Below are positions 35,695 to 57,350 of a stretch of DNA of 64,000 nucleotides, in pieces. The DNA lies in the NCBI RefSeq assembly GCF_001429165.1, contig NZ_LMIR01000002.1, positions 612,810 to 676,809 of the forward strand, read 5' to 3'. The position numbers and the translations under genes were made by a program. Position 1 is the first letter of the stretch, and each line of letters starts with the position of its first letter. Under the pieces are notes generated by a model, which searched no databases, was not told where the DNA came from, and saw only the letters and a program-made list of their open reading frames with translations. The DNA comes from Agromyces sp. Root81 (GTDB lineage: Bacteria > Actinomycetota > Actinomycetes > Actinomycetales > Microbacteriaceae).

Positions 35695-36750
35695 TCAGTG
35701 ATCGTGCGGCAGCACTTCGGTCGAGCCGATGGTGCTCAGCACGACGTGCGCACCGGCCCGGGTCGCACGAACACCCCCTGGCAGGTCGATCGACCCCTGC
35801 CCGTGCCAGTCGGTGACGAGACGCGCGATCTCGAGCGTCTGCGCTCGCGAGAGCGAGACGCCGAACTCGCTGCCGACGACGTGCCGGATGATGCGCTGGC
35901 GCAGCGCGGCCGGGTTCGCCGCGAGCGCTCCCGATGAGATCGCGATGCCGGCCTCGGCGGGTTCGCAGATCTCCTCGATGACCTCCTCGATCTGCTCCGA
36001 GAACGCCCCCTCGTCCTCGCGCAACTGCTCGGCCGTGCGGGCGAGCGCCTCGGCGATGCCGGGGCCGAGCTCGGCCTCGAGCACCGGCAGCACCCGCTCG
36101 CGCACCCGCACGCGGGCGTACGCGGGGTCGAGGTTGTGCGGGTCGTCCCACGGGGCGAGGCCCGCGTCGAGGCACGCCTGGCGCGCCGCGGCCCGGCGGA
36201 TGCCGAGGAGCGGCCGGGCGTAGCGGCCGGCGCGCGCGGGCATGCCCGAGAGGCTCGCGGCGCCCGAACCGCGGGCGAGGCCGAGCAGCACGGTCTCGGC
36301 CTGGTCGTCGAGCGTGTGGCCGAGCAGCAGGAGCGCGGCACCGGTCTCGGCGGCGGCCGCGTCGAGCGCGGCGTAGCGCGCATCGCGAGCGGATGCCTCG
36401 GGGCCGCCCTCCCCCGTCACCTCGACGCGGCGCACGATCACGGGGTCGAGTCCGAGTTCGCGCGCGGTCGCCGCTGCGGCGTCCGCGACCTCGGCGGATC
36501 CGGGCTGCAGCCCGTGGTCGACGATGACGGCGCCGGCGCGGCATCCGGCCCTCGGCGCCTCGAACGCCGTGGCCGCAGCGAGGGCGAGCGAATCGGCACC
36601 GCCCGAGAGCGCGACGAGCACGAGCGGGCTGCGAGACGCATCGGAACCGACCGGGAGCACGCCGCGCACGGCCCGGCGCACGTCGGCGATCTGAGGTGTC
36701 AATCGCGGGCGGCGCGGTGCCGCGGCATCCGTCTGCTGGTCAGGAGGCAT
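35695..36750 (-). CDS. tilS: tRNA(Ile)-lysidine synthase
   Basis: The 351-residue enzyme converts cytidine-34 of the CAU tRNA-Ile to lysidine so that it reads AUA; normally essential. The PP-loop LVALSGGADSLALAAAT is near residue 47, followed by HGLQPGS and LLGHTLDDQAETVLLGLARG. The C-terminal domain is short, as in actinobacteria. The ATG at 36750 shares a base with the stop of the prophage repressor (TGATG), and the att core is four bases upstream. On the minus strand that core supplies TAAGGT, six bases before the ATG, the spacing of a leaderless -10 box. Expression in the lysogen may depend on phage transcription. Confidence 0.94.
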   Translation of the reverse strand: MPPDQQTDAAAPRRPRLTPQIADVRRAVRGVLPVGSDASRSPLVLVALSGGADSLALAAATAFEAPRAGCRAGAVIVDHGLQPGSAEVADAAAATARELGLDPVIVRRVEVTGEGGPEASARDARYAALDAAAAETGAALLLLGHTLDDQAETVLLGLARGSGAASLSGMPARAGRYARPLLGIRRAAARQACLDAGLAPWDDPHNLDPAYARVRVRERVLPVLEAELGPGIAEALARTAEQLREDEGAFSEQIEEVIEEICEPAEAGIAISSGALAANPAALRQRIIRHVVGSEFGVSLSRAQTLEIARLVTDWHGQGSIDLPGGVRATRAGAHVVLSTIGSTEVLPHDH

Positions 36751-37073
36751 CAAGTAACCTTATTTGCCGACCTCCGGCGGGACTGGGTCGGGTGGCTCGA
36801 AACCGCTGCACGCACGGGCACGTCGCTGCCTGTCAGCCAGTCGAACGCGACGCCGGTCGCCATCGCCCACATGCGGAGCGTGGCGCGAGACGGCACTCGG
36901 TGGCCGTTCTCGGCCGAAGAGATCGTTGCGCGCGAGATCCCCGCGCGGTCTGCAAGTTCTGCCTGCTCGAGGCCAGCGAACTCACGCGAGAGCTGGAGCC
37001 GCCAATGGAGATCGAACTGCGGACGTGCACCGGCGTCCGGTGCGGGCATCAGGGGTGTGGTTGCCGTGCTCAT
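36750..37073 (-). CDS. Prophage Cro/C1-type repressor, 3' end created by integration
   Basis: The 107-residue helix-turn-helix protein (HTH about 37-62: QAELADRAGISRATISSAEN) is the probable immunity repressor. Its last codons read S-A-N-K-V-T-stop: NKV lies in the att core, while T and the stop come from host DNA, the TGA sharing a base with the tilS ATG. Joined instead to the phage right end (53510 downward), the frame would continue 31 codons (starting I-S-R-R-L-P-G) and stop at 53415, overlapping the next gene by four bases. So the free phage should encode a 137-residue form. A TGGACA/TAACTT promoter is seven bases from the ATG (leaderless). Confidence 0.85.
   Translation of the reverse strand: MSTATTPLMPAPDAGARPQFDLHWRLQLSREFAGLEQAELADRAGISRATISSAENGHRVPSRATLRMWAMATGVAFDWLTGSDVPVRAAVSSHPTQSRRRSANKVT
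36755..36764. other. attL core of the prophage
   Basis: TAACCTTATT, repeated exactly at 53510-53519. It overlaps the last codons of the prophage repressor and lies four bases from the tilS start codon. Confidence 0.85.
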
Positions 37074-37113
37074 GTGACCAAAGTTAGTCACACATGGCGA
37101 CACTTGTCCAGCG
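37073..37113 (-). promoter_or_regulatory. Prophage repressor promoter with operator dyad
   Basis: The inverted repeat TGTGAC-N8-GTCACA (37073-37092) overlaps the repressor's -10 box (TAACTT on the minus strand, 18 bases from a TGGACA -35). It is a likely autoregulatory operator between the repressor and the divergent early genes. Confidence 0.6.
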
Positions 37114-37212
37114 TCCACGCTGTTCTCAGTGCATTCCCTTAGGCGCAAGCTTCGTTCGACTCGCCGGACCAAGGTTTGACGTATGTCTTACCTTCGAGCC
37201 ATAGTTAGCGGC

Positions 37213-37449
37213 ATGGGGACTTTGACATTGCTGTCCACGCGCGACGTGGCCGATCGTCTTCGCATCACGCCTCGGAAGGTCTCGCGGTTGGTCGAGGCTG
37301 ACCGACTGAGGGCGGCAGCGAAGGCGCCGGGACCGCGCGGGGCGTTCATGTTCACCGCCGACGAGCTCGACCGATACATGCGCGATCGCGAGCACGAGCA
37401 CGTCGATGCTGACGAGCCTGCGGTCGATGACGACGAGGTCGCAGCGTGA
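37213..37449 (+). CDS. Phage small HTH (excisionase/MerR-like) protein
   Basis: The 78-residue protein has one winged-helix domain of the HTH_17/excisionase type: LLSTRDVADRLRITPRKVSR, then GAFMFTADELDRYM and an acidic tail. It is the first rightward gene, divergent from the repressor, so it takes the Cro-like or early-control position. CATAGT lies seven bases before the ATG with a TTGACG -35, suggesting a leaderless early promoter. Next gene starts by GTGA overlap. Confidence 0.7.
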   Translation: MGTLTLLSTRDVADRLRITPRKVSRLVEADRLRAAAKAPGPRGAFMFTADELDRYMRDREHEHVDADEPAVDDDEVAA

Positions 37450-39001: not shown

Positions 39002-39321
39002 CGACACCTGTCGTCCGGTACCGCCACGTCTGTGGCATCGACTGCGCGTGGGGCTGCATCATCACGCCTACCGTGACAGCACCTGTCACGACACCTGACA
39101 TGCGCCGGTACCGTGTCGAGCGCTCGGTCGCGTCGGGCAAGTGGCTCGTGCTGAACCGCGACGGCGAGGTCATCGACTCGGCCGACAGCTGGCCTGACGC
39201 ATTCGCGGTCGCGAGCCTGATCGCCACCGTTCACACCGCGCAGGAAGACATGGCCGCGAGCCTCGGCCGTAGTCACGTCGACTTGGTGCACGAGCTGCTC
39301 GACGATCTGCTGAGCGCATGA
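38998..39321 (+). CDS. Phage protein of 107 aa, unknown
   Basis: Begins MTTPVV with the same start-codon box and contains two more copies of its core within codons (39073-39100). An early CGIDCAWGC cysteine cluster is followed by a domain RRYRVERSVASGKWLVLNRD and an acidic helix at the end. ATGA-coupled to the HNH gene. Confidence 0.55.
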   Translation: MTTPVVRYRHVCGIDCAWGCIITPTVTAPVTTPDMRRYRVERSVASGKWLVLNRDGEVIDSADSWPDAFAVASLIATVHTAQEDMAASLGRSHVDLVHELLDDLLSA

Positions 39322-51069: not shown

Positions 51070-51360
51070 ATGACGACACCTGACACGACCAGCCCGAAGC
51101 ACGCCGCAGACGAACCGATTTCGTACGAGCTCGCGCCCGTTGCGTACGCCGAGCTCGCGCCCGTTGCGTACGCCGAGCTCGCGCCCGAACTGCTGCCTCT
51201 CAACGTGCGCCGCGTGCTCTACCTGCTCGGCATCGCCGCCCTCGTGGCCGGCCCTGTGGTCGCCGTTCAAATGCCGGAGTACGGCACGGCGATCATCAGC
51301 GCTGGCAACATGCTCGGTGCGGTCGGCCTGGGCACCGCCCTGGCTAACCCACGTCGGTAG
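51070..51360 (+). CDS. Putative holin
   Basis: The 96-residue protein has a soluble N-terminus with a tandem repeat (ELAPVAYA twice) and two transmembrane helices (VLYLLGIAALVAGPVVAV and AIISAGNMLGAVGLGTALA), the make-up of class II holins that release endolysin. Begins MTTPDT at the recurrent start-codon box ATGACGACACCTGACA. The 3' end overlaps the convergent lipoprotein gene by 17 bases. Confidence 0.7.
   Translation: MTTPDTTSPKHAADEPISYELAPVAYAELAPVAYAELAPELLPLNVRRVLYLLGIAALVAGPVVAVQMPEYGTAIISAGNMLGAVGLGTALANPRR
51127..51187 (+). repeat. 24-bp tandem repeat in the holin gene
   Basis: Two and a half copies of GAGCTCGCGCCCGTTGCGTA plus CGCC encode the ELAPVAYA repeats in the cytoplasmic N-terminus of the holin. 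Confidence 0.9.
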
Positions 51361-51703
51361 CGTCCTCGGCGACCCTCTGCGTGATGGCGTCCTTGACGGC
51401 GTCCACCTGCGCCTTCGTCATGTCGCCCTCGAAGTAGGTCAAGCACGTGACGTCAAAGGCGTACACGAGCGACGGGTCTTCCAACCCGACGCGGTACGGA
51501 TCAGAGCCGCACATCCCGTCCAGTGCATTGTCAGCGACACCCTCGGCGAGCTCAGCGATCATCGGGGTGTCGGCGGTGAGGAGGCCGTCGGTGGCGGCAT
51601 CCAACTCGATGAGGAAGCGATCGACCACCTCTTGCCGTGGCGGGGCGCTGCTGCATCCGGCGAGTAGCAGTGCGGCCGCAGCGATGGGGAGAAGCCTCTT
51701 CAT
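51344..51703 (-). CDS. Prophage-encoded lipoprotein
   Basis: The 119-residue lipoprotein has signal peptide MKRLLPIAAAALLLAGCSSA with lipobox LLAGC, then a helical domain with two cysteines (GMCGSDPY, VTCLTYFEG). Its start overlaps the integrase stop (ATGA), so it belongs to the lysogeny operon and is likely made in lysogens. A surface lipoprotein carried by a temperate phage suggests superinfection exclusion or lysogenic conversion, not proven. Confidence 0.75.
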   Translation of the reverse strand: MKRLLPIAAAALLLAGCSSAPPRQEVVDRFLIELDAATDGLLTADTPMIAELAEGVADNALDGMCGSDPYRVGLEDPSLVYAFDVTCLTYFEGDMTKAQVDAVKDAITQRVAEDATDVG

Positions 51704-52584
51704 GATCGCGAGCCTAACGGGGCGCGGCGCGGATACGTCGCGCCCCGCTTTCCGTTGCGCGGCACGTGCACGCGCGGCAGCGTCTCGATCGCAGCGCGCA
51801 GCGCATTCTCTGAGGGGAGGTAGTAGTACTTCATCGAGCTCGCGTCGGCGTGGCGCATGTTCGCCTGGGCGACGGGCCCGGAGACGCCGGCCTCGAGCTG
51901 CTGGGTCGCGAACCAGGCGCGGAGCTGGTGTGGTCGATGCCCGGTGATACCTGCACGCCGGAGGGCCCGTGCGAGCACGGTCGAGATGGTAGCCGGCCTC
52001 ACGTGCCCGTCCGAGACGCCGGGGAACAGGTTCCCGTCTCGTCGGTGGTACTGCAGCTCGTCCCAGACGATCGGGTGCAGTGGCCGCCACACGAGCACGT
52101 CGCCCTTCGCGTTCAGGGTGAGGATGCGTCGGCGTTGCCAGTCGATCGAGCCGGACGAGACGGCGGCTATCTCGGCCGCGCGCATGCCCTGGTACGCGTA
52201 GAGCAGGACGTAGAGCCGGGTGCGCTGGTGGATGCTCGACAGGAGGAGCGCCTGCAGCTCGGCGGTCGATACGGGGTGCGCCTCGCGCCGCGGCACGCGC
52301 TGCTTCGGCAGCCGCTCGGCGGGGTTGTCGGTGCGGTATTCCTCGTCCTGCAGGAACGCGTACACGCCTCGGTATGCCGACCGCATGAGCCGCTTGGTGT
52401 GCGGGGCGACATCGACCGCCAGCGCGCCGATGAGATCCTCGCGCGCCACCGTCATCAGCGTCTTGCCTGTCCGCACGAGCATTCGCCGCACCTGCCCCTC
52501 GGAGTAGGCGATCGAGGATCGCTTGTGACCGGATGCTGCGCGGAACGTCGCGTAGGCGGTGAGGAGCTCGTCGTCGGTGTGCAT
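51700..52584 (-). CDS. int: Prophage tyrosine integrase
   Basis: The 294-residue tyrosine recombinase catalyses attP x attB exchange. Core-binding domain about 1-95; catalytic residues Arg135 (GMRAAEIA), His219-x-x-Arg222 (HQLR), His245 (MRHADASS) and a tyrosine among 253-255 (KYYYLPS). No N-terminal arm-binding domain is obvious. Located about 0.9 kb from attR. In the lysogen it lies downstream of the right-end small genes and is cut off from the repressor promoter. Confidence 0.9.
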   Translation of the reverse strand: MHTDDELLTAYATFRAASGHKRSSIAYSEGQVRRMLVRTGKTLMTVAREDLIGALAVDVAPHTKRLMRSAYRGVYAFLQDEEYRTDNPAERLPKQRVPRREAHPVSTAELQALLLSSIHQRTRLYVLLYAYQGMRAAEIAAVSSGSIDWQRRRILTLNAKGDVLVWRPLHPIVWDELQYHRRDGNLFPGVSDGHVRPATISTVLARALRRAGITGHRPHQLRAWFATQQLEAGVSGPVAQANMRHADASSMKYYYLPSENALRAAIETLPRVHVPRNGKRGATYPRRAPLGSRS

Positions 52585-52649: not shown

Positions 52650-53096
52650 CTACAGGCCGGCCAGCTCGCGCACGACGCGCTGAGGGACAACGAGCCCTCG
52701 CCCGATGCGGCGTACGTCGAACATGTCGCGGTTCGACTTGATCGAGTACTCCGACGTACCAAGCAGGCGCGCGGCGACGTCGAGCGGGAGCAGCGCGGGC
52801 TGCTCGTCGAGCAGGCTCGTGAGGCTGACAGGTGCTGTCACCTGACTGTCACCACCGATGCGAGCGACCTCGGCGGATCCCCCGACGCGGCGCACAGCGT
52901 CGGCCGGGATCATCCATGCGCCGTCGCGGAGCTCCGCACCGGGCAGCTCGCCCGCGGCGAGCCAGCGGCGCACGGTGCGCTCGGTCTTGCCCGTCGCGTC
53001 GACGTAGCCCTGCAGCGTGAGCAGGCTCGTCGGGGCTGCCGACGGGTCGAGCAGCGTGAAGACATCGATGTCAGGTGTCGTCATGGTCATTGTCAT
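52650..53096 (-). CDS. Phage protein with two excisionase-like HTH segments
   Basis: The 148-residue protein has two helix-turn-helix-like parts: TLQGYVDATGKTERTVRRWL (about 28-47) and LLPLDVAARLLGTSEYSIKS (about 103-122). Immediately upstream of integrase, so a recombination directionality factor is likely. Start by ATGA overlap at 53096; an in-frame ATG at 53084 coincides with the recurrent start box (ATGACGACACCTGACA) and may be the true start. Carries the 16-mer GTGACAGCACCTGTCA at 52826-52841. Confidence 0.7.
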   Translation of the reverse strand: MTMTMTTPDIDVFTLLDPSAAPTSLLTLQGYVDATGKTERTVRRWLAAGELPGAELRDGAWMIPADAVRRVGGSAEVARIGGDSQVTAPVSLTSLLDEQPALLPLDVAARLLGTSEYSIKSNRDMFDVRRIGRGLVVPQRVVRELAGL

Positions 53097-53272
53097 CCCT
53101 CGTTGGTTGTGTAGGCGTGGCGGTCTTCGATGGCTGCTGAGATCGCCTCATTCCAGGCGTCGACGGTGATTCGTCCGTCTCGCTCGATCGAGGCGTAGAG
53201 ATACCCGATGGTGAATGAGGCATCACCTCGACCGTCTAGCGGCATCGGCTCGACGGTCTTCGCGCGCCTCAT
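53093..53272 (-). CDS. Phage protein of 59 aa, unknown
   Basis: Encodes MRRAKTVEPMPLDGRGDASF followed by a helical end. ATGA overlaps on both sides tie it to the right-end lysogeny operon. No family recognised. Confidence 0.55.
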   Translation of the reverse strand: MRRAKTVEPMPLDGRGDASFTIGYLYASIERDGRITVDAWNEAISAAIEDRHAYTTNEG

Positions 53273-53418
53273 CGCGCGCCACCGCTGCGGTAGGTGCGCG
53301 CCCACGTCTTGTGGATCATCCCGTTGACGCCGCGTGCAATGTGTCGCCCGGCGTGGCCGCGATCCCGCGTGCAGCAGAATCCCTCGCGTGTCGCCTGGCA
53401 TCCGCCACGCTCGGTCAT
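53269..53418 (-). CDS. Phage protein of 49 aa with Cys/His residues
   Basis: Encodes MTERGGCQATREGFCCTRDR followed by GHAGRHIARGVNGMIH, a small basic Cys/His protein, perhaps metal-binding. Its ATG overlaps by four bases the stop that the extended repressor would use in the circular phage, showing it is the gene after the repressor in the free form. It is the outermost prophage gene on this side. Confidence 0.65.
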   Translation of the reverse strand: MTERGGCQATREGFCCTRDRGHAGRHIARGVNGMIHKTWARTYRSGGAR

Positions 53419-53509
53419 CGTGTACCACCGCCGCGGTGCTGGCGGCGACCGTCGTTGTCTCGGCCGTCGCGGCGTCGCACGTCATTCGTGCCGGGCAGAC
53501 GTCGAGAGA

Positions 53510-53519
53510 TAACCTTATT
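53510..53519. other. attR core of the prophage
   Basis: TAACCTTATT, identical to 36755-36764. Phage DNA lies to the left; the ppa upstream region lies to the right. Confidence 0.85.
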
Positions 53520-53599
53520 CCGCCGATCGCGCCCGATTCCGACCGGGTCGGCCGCGGGCCAAGCTTCGAGAAGCGCCTTCCAACACAAGGAGAACCAGC

Positions 53600-54085
53600 A
53601 TGGGCGAGTACGCCGCCATCATCGAGATCCCCAAGGGGAGCCGCAACAAGTACGAGGTCGACCACGAGACCGGCCGGGTCTTCCTCGACCGCGTGCTCTA
53701 CACGACGTTCGTCTACCCGACCGACTACGGCTTCTTCGAGAACACCCTCGGCGACGACGGCGACCCGCTGGACGTGCTCGTGCTGCTCGACTTCCCGCTG
53801 TTCCCGGGCGTGGGCGTGAAGGTCCGCCCCGTGGGCGTCTTCCACATGACCGACGACGGCGGCGGCGACGCCAAGGTCATCGCGGTGCCCGCCGGCGACC
53901 CGCGCTGGAACGGCATTCAGGACGTGAACGACATCCCCGAGTTCACCCGCAAGGAGATCGAGCACTTCTTCGAGCACTACAAGGACCTCGAGCCCGGCAA
54001 GTGGGTCAAGACCGAGGGCTGGGCGAACGCGGCCGAGGCCGAGGCGCTCATCCAGAAGGCGATCGAGGCGTTCCCCGGTCACTGA
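53600..54085 (+). CDS. ppa: Inorganic pyrophosphatase (family I)
   Basis: The 161-residue soluble hexameric-type enzyme hydrolyses pyrophosphate with Mg. The signature [10 protein letters not shown] supplies the catalytic aspartates; also [17 protein letters not shown] and [20 protein letters not shown] lies seven bases before the ATG. The prophage is inserted about 80 bases upstream, so the promoter region is now hybrid or shortened. Confidence 0.97.
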
Positions 54086-56784: not shown

Positions 56785-57006
56785 TCCCCGTCCACGCGGG
56801 CTCGGGTCCCCGCGCTCCTCATCTCTCGGTTCGGGCACTGGCAGCCCCACGATAGGCGGGAGTCCGGCGCATTCCGGGCATTTCGAGCGCATGTCCGCGG
56901 ATGCCGCGTGGCGGGCCCCGACGCATCCGCGACCCTCGTTTTGCCATCTGGGCAGACTGCACGTATGCTTGGCTGTCGGCGGGCGTGCCCCAGGTAACGC
57001 CCTCCG

Positions 57007-57079
57007 GCCCCATCGTTTAGTGGCCTAGGACACCGCCCTTTCACGGCGGCAGCACGGGTTCGAATCCCGTTGGGGTCAC
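57007..57079 (+). tRNA. tRNA-Glu (anticodon TTC)
   Basis: 73-base cloverleaf: acceptor GGCCCCA/TGGGGTC, anticodon stem CCGCC/GGCGG with TTC at 57041-57043, T-arm ACGGGTTCGAATCCCGT. No encoded CCA. Confidence 0.96.
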
Positions 57080-57132
57080 TGCACGACAGCACGACATACA
57101 ATTGAATACTCAGGTGTTGCAAGACACCACGA

Positions 57133-57206
57133 GGCCCTGTAGCGCAGTTGGTTAGCGTGCCGCCCTGTCACGGCGGAGGTCGCGGGTTCAAGTCCCGTCA
57201 GGGTCG
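57133..57206 (+). tRNA. tRNA-Asp (anticodon GTC)
   Basis: 74-base cloverleaf: acceptor GGCCCTG/CAGGGTC, anticodon GTC at 57167-57169, T-arm GCGGGTTCAAGTCCCGT, G discriminator. An imperfect hairpin with a T-rich end (57217-57247) follows and may terminate the Glu-Asp transcript. Confidence 0.96.
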
Positions 57207-57254
57207 CTCAGGCGACAAGCCCTTTCCCTTACGAGAGAAGGGGCTTTCTCCTTA

Positions 57255-57274
57255 TCAGGGCGCATGCGCCCTGA
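57255..57274. repeat. 20-bp perfect palindrome touching tRNA-Phe
   Basis: TCAGGGCGCATGCGCCCTGA ends on the base before the first nucleotide of tRNA-Phe. Function unknown; possibly a processing or terminator element. Confidence 0.85.
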
Positions 57275-57350
57275 GGCTCTGTAGCTCAGTTGGTAGAGCG
57301 CACGACTGAAAATCGTGAGGTCACGGGATCGACGCCCGTCGGAGCCACCA
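57275..57350 (+). tRNA. tRNA-Phe (anticodon GAA), element attachment gene
   Basis: 76 bases including an encoded CCA. Acceptor GGCTCTG/CGGAGCC, anticodon GAA at 57308-57310. The T-loop reads ATCGACG, with A in place of the usual T54. Its 3' end is the likely left attachment site of the element whose integrase lies 34 bases beyond. Confidence 0.95.

Follow-up and report, generated by a model that had tools for sequence, protein, structure and literature searches.

In BPs and the phages of Clusters G, I, N and P, which use integration-dependent immunity, attP lies inside the repressor reading frame (PMC4557955, PMC9262239). The repressor and integrase genes of such phages are on one strand with the repressor upstream in the phage circle, a Cro-like gene diverges from them, and the lysogen form of the repressor is shorter and takes its end from host bases; the two forms have 136 and 103 residues in BPs (PMC4557955). 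According to the accessible part of a 2022 review (PMC9262239), all phages with this type of immunity use an attB that overlaps a tRNA gene, both the repressor and the integrase are tagged, and the cores of the Int-Y phages are 25 bp or longer. Further cases of such systems have been described (PMC9934374, PMC6109161, PMC5559632). Non-tRNA sites are not unheard of, because three of the 13 Gordonia attB sites predicted in the accessible text of PMC5559632 are intergenic, and the phages concerned all have a tRNA site as well. Galaxy has a similar gene order, no tags and its attP elsewhere, as far as the available part of its report describes (PMC5513430). In tRNA-dependent lysogeny, exemplified by Fionnbharth, a tyrosine integrase is combined with cores of approximately 10 bp (PMC10865867). 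No case of integration-dependent immunity at the promoter of a protein gene was seen in the part of the open-licence literature that was covered.

The prophage of Agromyces sp. Root81 has much of the BPs-type architecture. Its attP, which was obtained by joining the ends in silico at the core, is inside the repressor frame, the repressor forms have 137 and 107 residues, the shorter one being that of the lysogen with an end supplied by host bases, and a Cro-like gene diverges from the repressor. The likeness to BPs-type phages that the original prediction proposed is borne out in part, by the same-strand rep-attP-int order and by homology of both repressor and integrase. However, unlike the BPs-type phages as portrayed in the accessible literature, neither the repressor nor the integrase has an ssrA-like end, attB is not in a tRNA gene, the core has 10 bp rather than 25 bp or more, and three ORFs separate the repressor from the integrase; GMA5 likewise has an ORF between the two genes. 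The tyrosine integrase and the short core resemble those of Fionnbharth, and many near relatives of the integrase carry tRNA-Arg(TCT) beside int. In contrast to what is described for Fionnbharth, attB is outside a tRNA gene, no phage tRNA was found, no tRNA relic rises clearly above chance, and the site is promoter-like, with a -10 box kept by the core. Gordonia Cluster CW, Bifidobacterium Bb423phi2/689b-1 (PMC5559632, PMC6109161) and Gordonia phage Rahul (16.2 kb) also combine a small genome with a repressor-integrase cassette. However, the accessible Cluster CW and Bifidobacterium reports give tRNA attB sites, and the repressors of the Bifidobacterium elements (PMC6109161) and Rahul end ssrA-like or in AA. 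In the Microbacterium phage BonaeVitae group (17 kb), the gene that comes after the repressor encodes a homologue of the 148-aa HTH protein listed below, but an integrase is neither annotated there nor found by tblastn with the Root81 integrase. We judge the Root81 locus to be a variant of integration-dependent immunity, its architecture being evident from the sequence and its function as a switch being presumed.

The prophage is a 16.75-kb small siphovirus bounded by the 10-bp core TAACCTTATT, and it encodes terminase, portal, capsid, an M23 peptidase, a tyrosine integrase and a Cro/Xis-like protein. The features relevant here are as follows.

35695–36750, minus strand: host tilS (tRNA-Ile lysidine synthase), from its ATG
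36750–37073, minus strand: repressor, lysogen form, 107 aa, HTH_3
36755–36764: attL core TAACCTTATT, with the last repressor codons (minus strand) and the TAAGGT box (36762–36757)
37074–37212: control region, with P_R-like TTGACG-18-CATAGT (37176–37205, plus strand) and, by eye, P_rep-like TGGACA-18-TAACTT (minus strand)
37074–37091: inverted repeat GTGACCAAAGTTAGTCAC
37213–37449, plus strand: Cro/Xis-like HTH_17 protein, 78 aa, divergent from the repressor, ending DEVAA
51700–52584, minus strand: tyrosine integrase, 294 aa, catalytic R/HxxR/H/Y present, ending GSRS
52650–53096, minus strand: HTH_17-like DNA-binding protein, 148 aa (phrog_22141)
53093–53272, minus strand: 59-aa ORF with ATGA overlaps at both ends
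53269–53418, minus strand: 49-aa ORF with CCTRDRGHAGRH
53415–53509, minus strand: 3' remnant of the repressor frame at attR, the tail of the predicted 137-aa form
53510–53519: attR core TAACCTTATT
53600–54085, plus strand: host ppa (inorganic pyrophosphatase)

TAACCTTATT occurs only at these two places in the window (the whole 64,000-nucleotide stretch that was analysed), and twice on the forward and never on the reverse strand of the genome (4,158,469 bases). When genus genomes were searched with window positions 53420–53700, 56 of 60 matched, Root81 included. Host similarity begins at query base 91, which is 53510, in 22 of the 55 other genomes, and at base 88, three bases earlier, in one; the other long matches, among the matches listed, begin further inside the host part. 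The prophage ends are the true ends, as indicated by the relatives' matches that start at 53510. Each of the 14 uninserted relatives fetched has a single GTAACCTTATT between tilS and ppa, the rejoined flanks are ~93% identical to the two nearest empty sites over 367–368 bp, and 32 of 60 genus genomes, Root81 included, contain an exact copy of the 19-mer GGCATCAMGTAACCTTATT. A core of only 10 bp might suggest that the repeat and the frame crossing are coincidental or that the ends were mis-called; however, both core copies in 4.16 Mb are at att sites, and the 14 empty sites and the start of host similarity at the core make this extremely improbable. No free phage with this attP was identified, the 17-base attP pattern having no exact match in viral_contigs. 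One locus with a 100% integrase match (L050) looks like the same prophage, taken from a cellular genome. In the 500 bp around attP, the longest candidate arm-type repeat was 10 bp, a length reached by 126 of 200 shuffles.

It had been proposed that the att core lies inside the repressor gene, and the frame indeed crosses TAACCTTATT at 36755–36764. In the lysogen it encodes 107 residues ending NKVT, and its TGA (36752–36750) shares one base with the tilS ATG (36750–36748) in the sequence TGATG. In the in-silico circular phage the frame encodes 137 residues, of which 31 are new, including 10 Arg and 6 Gly; it ends GGGTR, and the predicted lengths, Arg/Gly-rich character, stop at 53415 and lack of an ssrA-like tag are all as found. 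The stop forms an ATGA overlap with the 49-aa ORF, from which the original prediction argued that the long form is real. The overlap stands as an argument, and the open length does not, since 55% of composition shuffles of the tail stay open over 31 codons. The codon score of the tail exceeds that of only 6% of true-frame windows, yet it exceeds that of 84% of non-coding windows, and it is lower than the score of frame 1 over these bases; codon statistics are therefore equivocal on whether the tail is coding. Better evidence for the long frame, to which we attach no probability, is the way it closes, exactly in an ATGA overlap that is followed by two others.

Of 60 related loci other than the Root81 prophage, 59 have a complete integrase end: 45 end in AA, 8 in a single A and 6 otherwise. 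Distinct integrases, compared over their last 60 residues (n = 51), give 39, 6 and 6, respectively. A repressor just upstream of int was sought at 33 loci and found at 14, of which 13 are distinct (L086 and L087 were counted once, and L093 was left out); 4 end in AA, 3 in a single A and 6 otherwise. Among the relatives whose ends were joined, as described below, the tail ends in AAA in G133 and G271 and in a residue other than A in G390 and G014. The Root81 prophage is thus not alone in having a tagless repressor tail, and a tagless integrase is rarer than a tagless repressor tail. The free Gordonia phages Doggs, with the same rep-int order as the Root81 prophage, and Rahul have AA ends on both proteins. 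The host tmRNA tag, ANAKRTDFALAA, ends ALAA. Because the Root81 tail lacks AA and its coding signal is weak, the switch may depend on a different mechanism, or it may have decayed. Under decay, attP would be in the repressor by descent, both forms would be active, the tail would be unselected and lysogeny would be ordinary. The missing AA ends of repressor and integrase, the weak codon score and the 6 of 13 relatives' repressors without a terminal A, which suggest that tags may be dispensable or lost, are consistent with this, but the long frame closes in an exact ATGA overlap that two more follow; we consider decay unlikely, though a serious competitor.

The original prediction placed attB at a protein-gene start and not in a tRNA gene. 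The latter holds, and the former is refined to a promoter-like element between the divergent tilS and ppa genes. The TAAGGT box in the attL core is six bases upstream of the tilS ATG. tilS is present in all 90 family genomes searched, and motifs were counted at the best 30 of the 90 loci. TAnnnT is found six bases before an in-frame tilS start at 26 of these 30 and in 1.2% of mononucleotide shuffles; the strict form TAA[CG]GTTA-N4-ATG is found at 20 of 30 and in 0 of 6000 shuffles. ppa diverges from tilS at 29 of the 30, the exception being the interrupted Root81 locus. Because TAACGTTA is palindromic, tilS and ppa can each use a TAnnnT box in it. attB is apparently a leaderless tilS promoter with a -10 region common to ppa. 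After integration the two boxes are still present in the core at attL and at attR, which may be read as the promoter counterpart of tRNA restoration. A search for another element at tilS/ppa found no ppa in 79 loci, the prophage's own L050 and the second Min1 piece included, and a literature search for prophages at tilS gave, by its listing, only an E. coli CRISPRi screen. In up to 2 kb of DNA upstream of each of 57 related integrases, 74,289 bases in all, neither TAA[CG]GTTA nor TAACCTTA is present. As evidence against a second element this is weak, because the upstream DNA available is short at many of these loci.

At attR the tilS-side box faces the gene series 53418–51700, which includes the integrase. 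Integration might therefore act mainly by rewiring transcription, with protein length secondary: the tilS upstream region and the core would face the integrase operon, and P_rep would run into tilS. The conserved TAnnnT box in the core, six bases before the tilS ATG, and its position at attR agree with such a promoter exchange; however, no good -35 hexamer was seen by eye at the tilS/ppa site, and relatives with tRNA sites do without such a promoter, so that we regard it as distinctly improbable. A broader reading, which we find doubtful but not remote, is that the core is triple-coded as the crossover site, the last repressor codons and two -10 boxes. Promoters would then be swapped along with the repressor end, the host tilS upstream region would drive the integrase operon at attR, and immunity would be tied to the expression of a host translation gene, since the repressor becomes the cistron before tilS.

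On balance we favor, with some reserve, an integration-dependent immunity cassette whose attB is the common -10 region of the divergent tilS and ppa genes. In the circular phage, P_rep would transcribe a single operon, as suggested by gene order and overlaps, comprising the 137-aa repressor (through attP), three small genes and the integrase. The Arg/Gly-rich tail would prevent the long form from maintaining repression, through instability or poor assembly. The integrase would recombine the 10-bp core with that of tilS/ppa, after which the repressor would end one residue on, at a Thr that is partly host-encoded, and the 107-aa form would repress P_R. Integration would also cut the integrase genes off from P_rep and make the repressor the cistron preceding tilS (TGATG overlap), and tilS and ppa could keep their own -10 regions and starts because the core carries the -10 boxes. 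The sites, frames, overlaps, homology, attB and conservation of promoter-like motifs are read from the DNA itself, and the difference in activity between the repressor forms and the changes in expression are what we infer from them. A phage of this class that has a promoter-like attB, a short core and untagged proteins would demonstrate that neither a tRNA attB nor tags are required for the switch, and how an integrase lineage rich in tRNA-Arg users can move to a protein-gene promoter with both neighbors still expressible. The prophage also offers a direct test of what inactivates the long repressor.

The repressor matches 231 phage records, and most of the 40 matches listed are annotated as repressors. 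The integrase matches 294, mainly from Mycobacterium, Gordonia and Arthrobacter phages, and is found at E <= 1e-30 in 14 of 398 genomes of the bacterial family, Root81 included. Both prophage ends of four family relatives (G133, G390, G271 and G014) were fetched and joined, and the anticipated attP inside a homologous repressor was found, e.g. in G271, G133 and G390. G133 and G390 have tRNA cores of 42 and 40 bp inside the repressor, whose joined tails end GAAA and RRAG, respectively. The G271 repressor has 92 residues before and 113 after joining (tail GAAA), and the joined G014 tail lacks AA; both cross at GATTA in tRNA-like sequence, with tRNA-Arg beside int. G271 (L033/L034) and G014 (L035–L037) thus combine attP in the repressor, tRNA-Arg beside int and a short GATTA core, where the phage frame reads D-Y and the lysogen frame D-stop.

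ARAGORN found tRNA-Arg(TCT) within 1.2 kb of the int start at 17 of 49 loci; the 49 include L050, and some prophages are represented twice among them, once from each of two collections. In the integrase tree (46 rows), Root81 clusters with three 15-kb phage contigs, L073, L074 and L076 (99/95), within a 13-row clade (100/94), where int has tRNA-Arg(TCT) next to it in 9 of the other 12 rows; the long Root81 end branch (1.09) makes its place less sure. The repressors of L073 and L076 can be read as containing a tRNA 3' half (RQ[ED]SNLRPRDY). As the likeliest history we infer that the lineage first used a tRNA-Arg site and moved to tilS afterwards. A candidate tRNA-Arg relic after int was rejected: in local alignment, the scores of eight of nine tRNA-Arg copies do not exceed the 95% point of 300 mononucleotide shuffles, and that of the ninth (L079) is 1 unit above it.

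ARAGORN found only three tRNAs in the window, at 57006–57350, outside the prophage. The 148-aa HTH protein matches 139 phage records, of which 138 are Microbacterium phages; int begins 65 bp beyond its gene. The 49-aa ORF (query 53272–53418) had no match at E 0.1 in the phage collection. In the control region, GTGAC-N6..10-GTCAC was considered as an operator series and rejected, because the prophage has only two copies, at 37074 and, with another spacer, at 39073. The Cro/Xis-like protein matches an excisionase family at 2.4e-5. Its DEVAA is the sole AA end among the 19 prophage ORFs listed, so that the ssrA-like end sits on the opposing regulator and not on the repressor or integrase. In BonaeVitae (L112, 1682–2482), the repressor ends LAGLAA and adjoins the 148-aa HTH homologue. 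A lipoprotein-like ORF (51344–51718, minus strand) overlaps the int 3' end and occupies the slot where many relatives hold tRNA-Arg(TCT); it is possibly lysogeny cargo.
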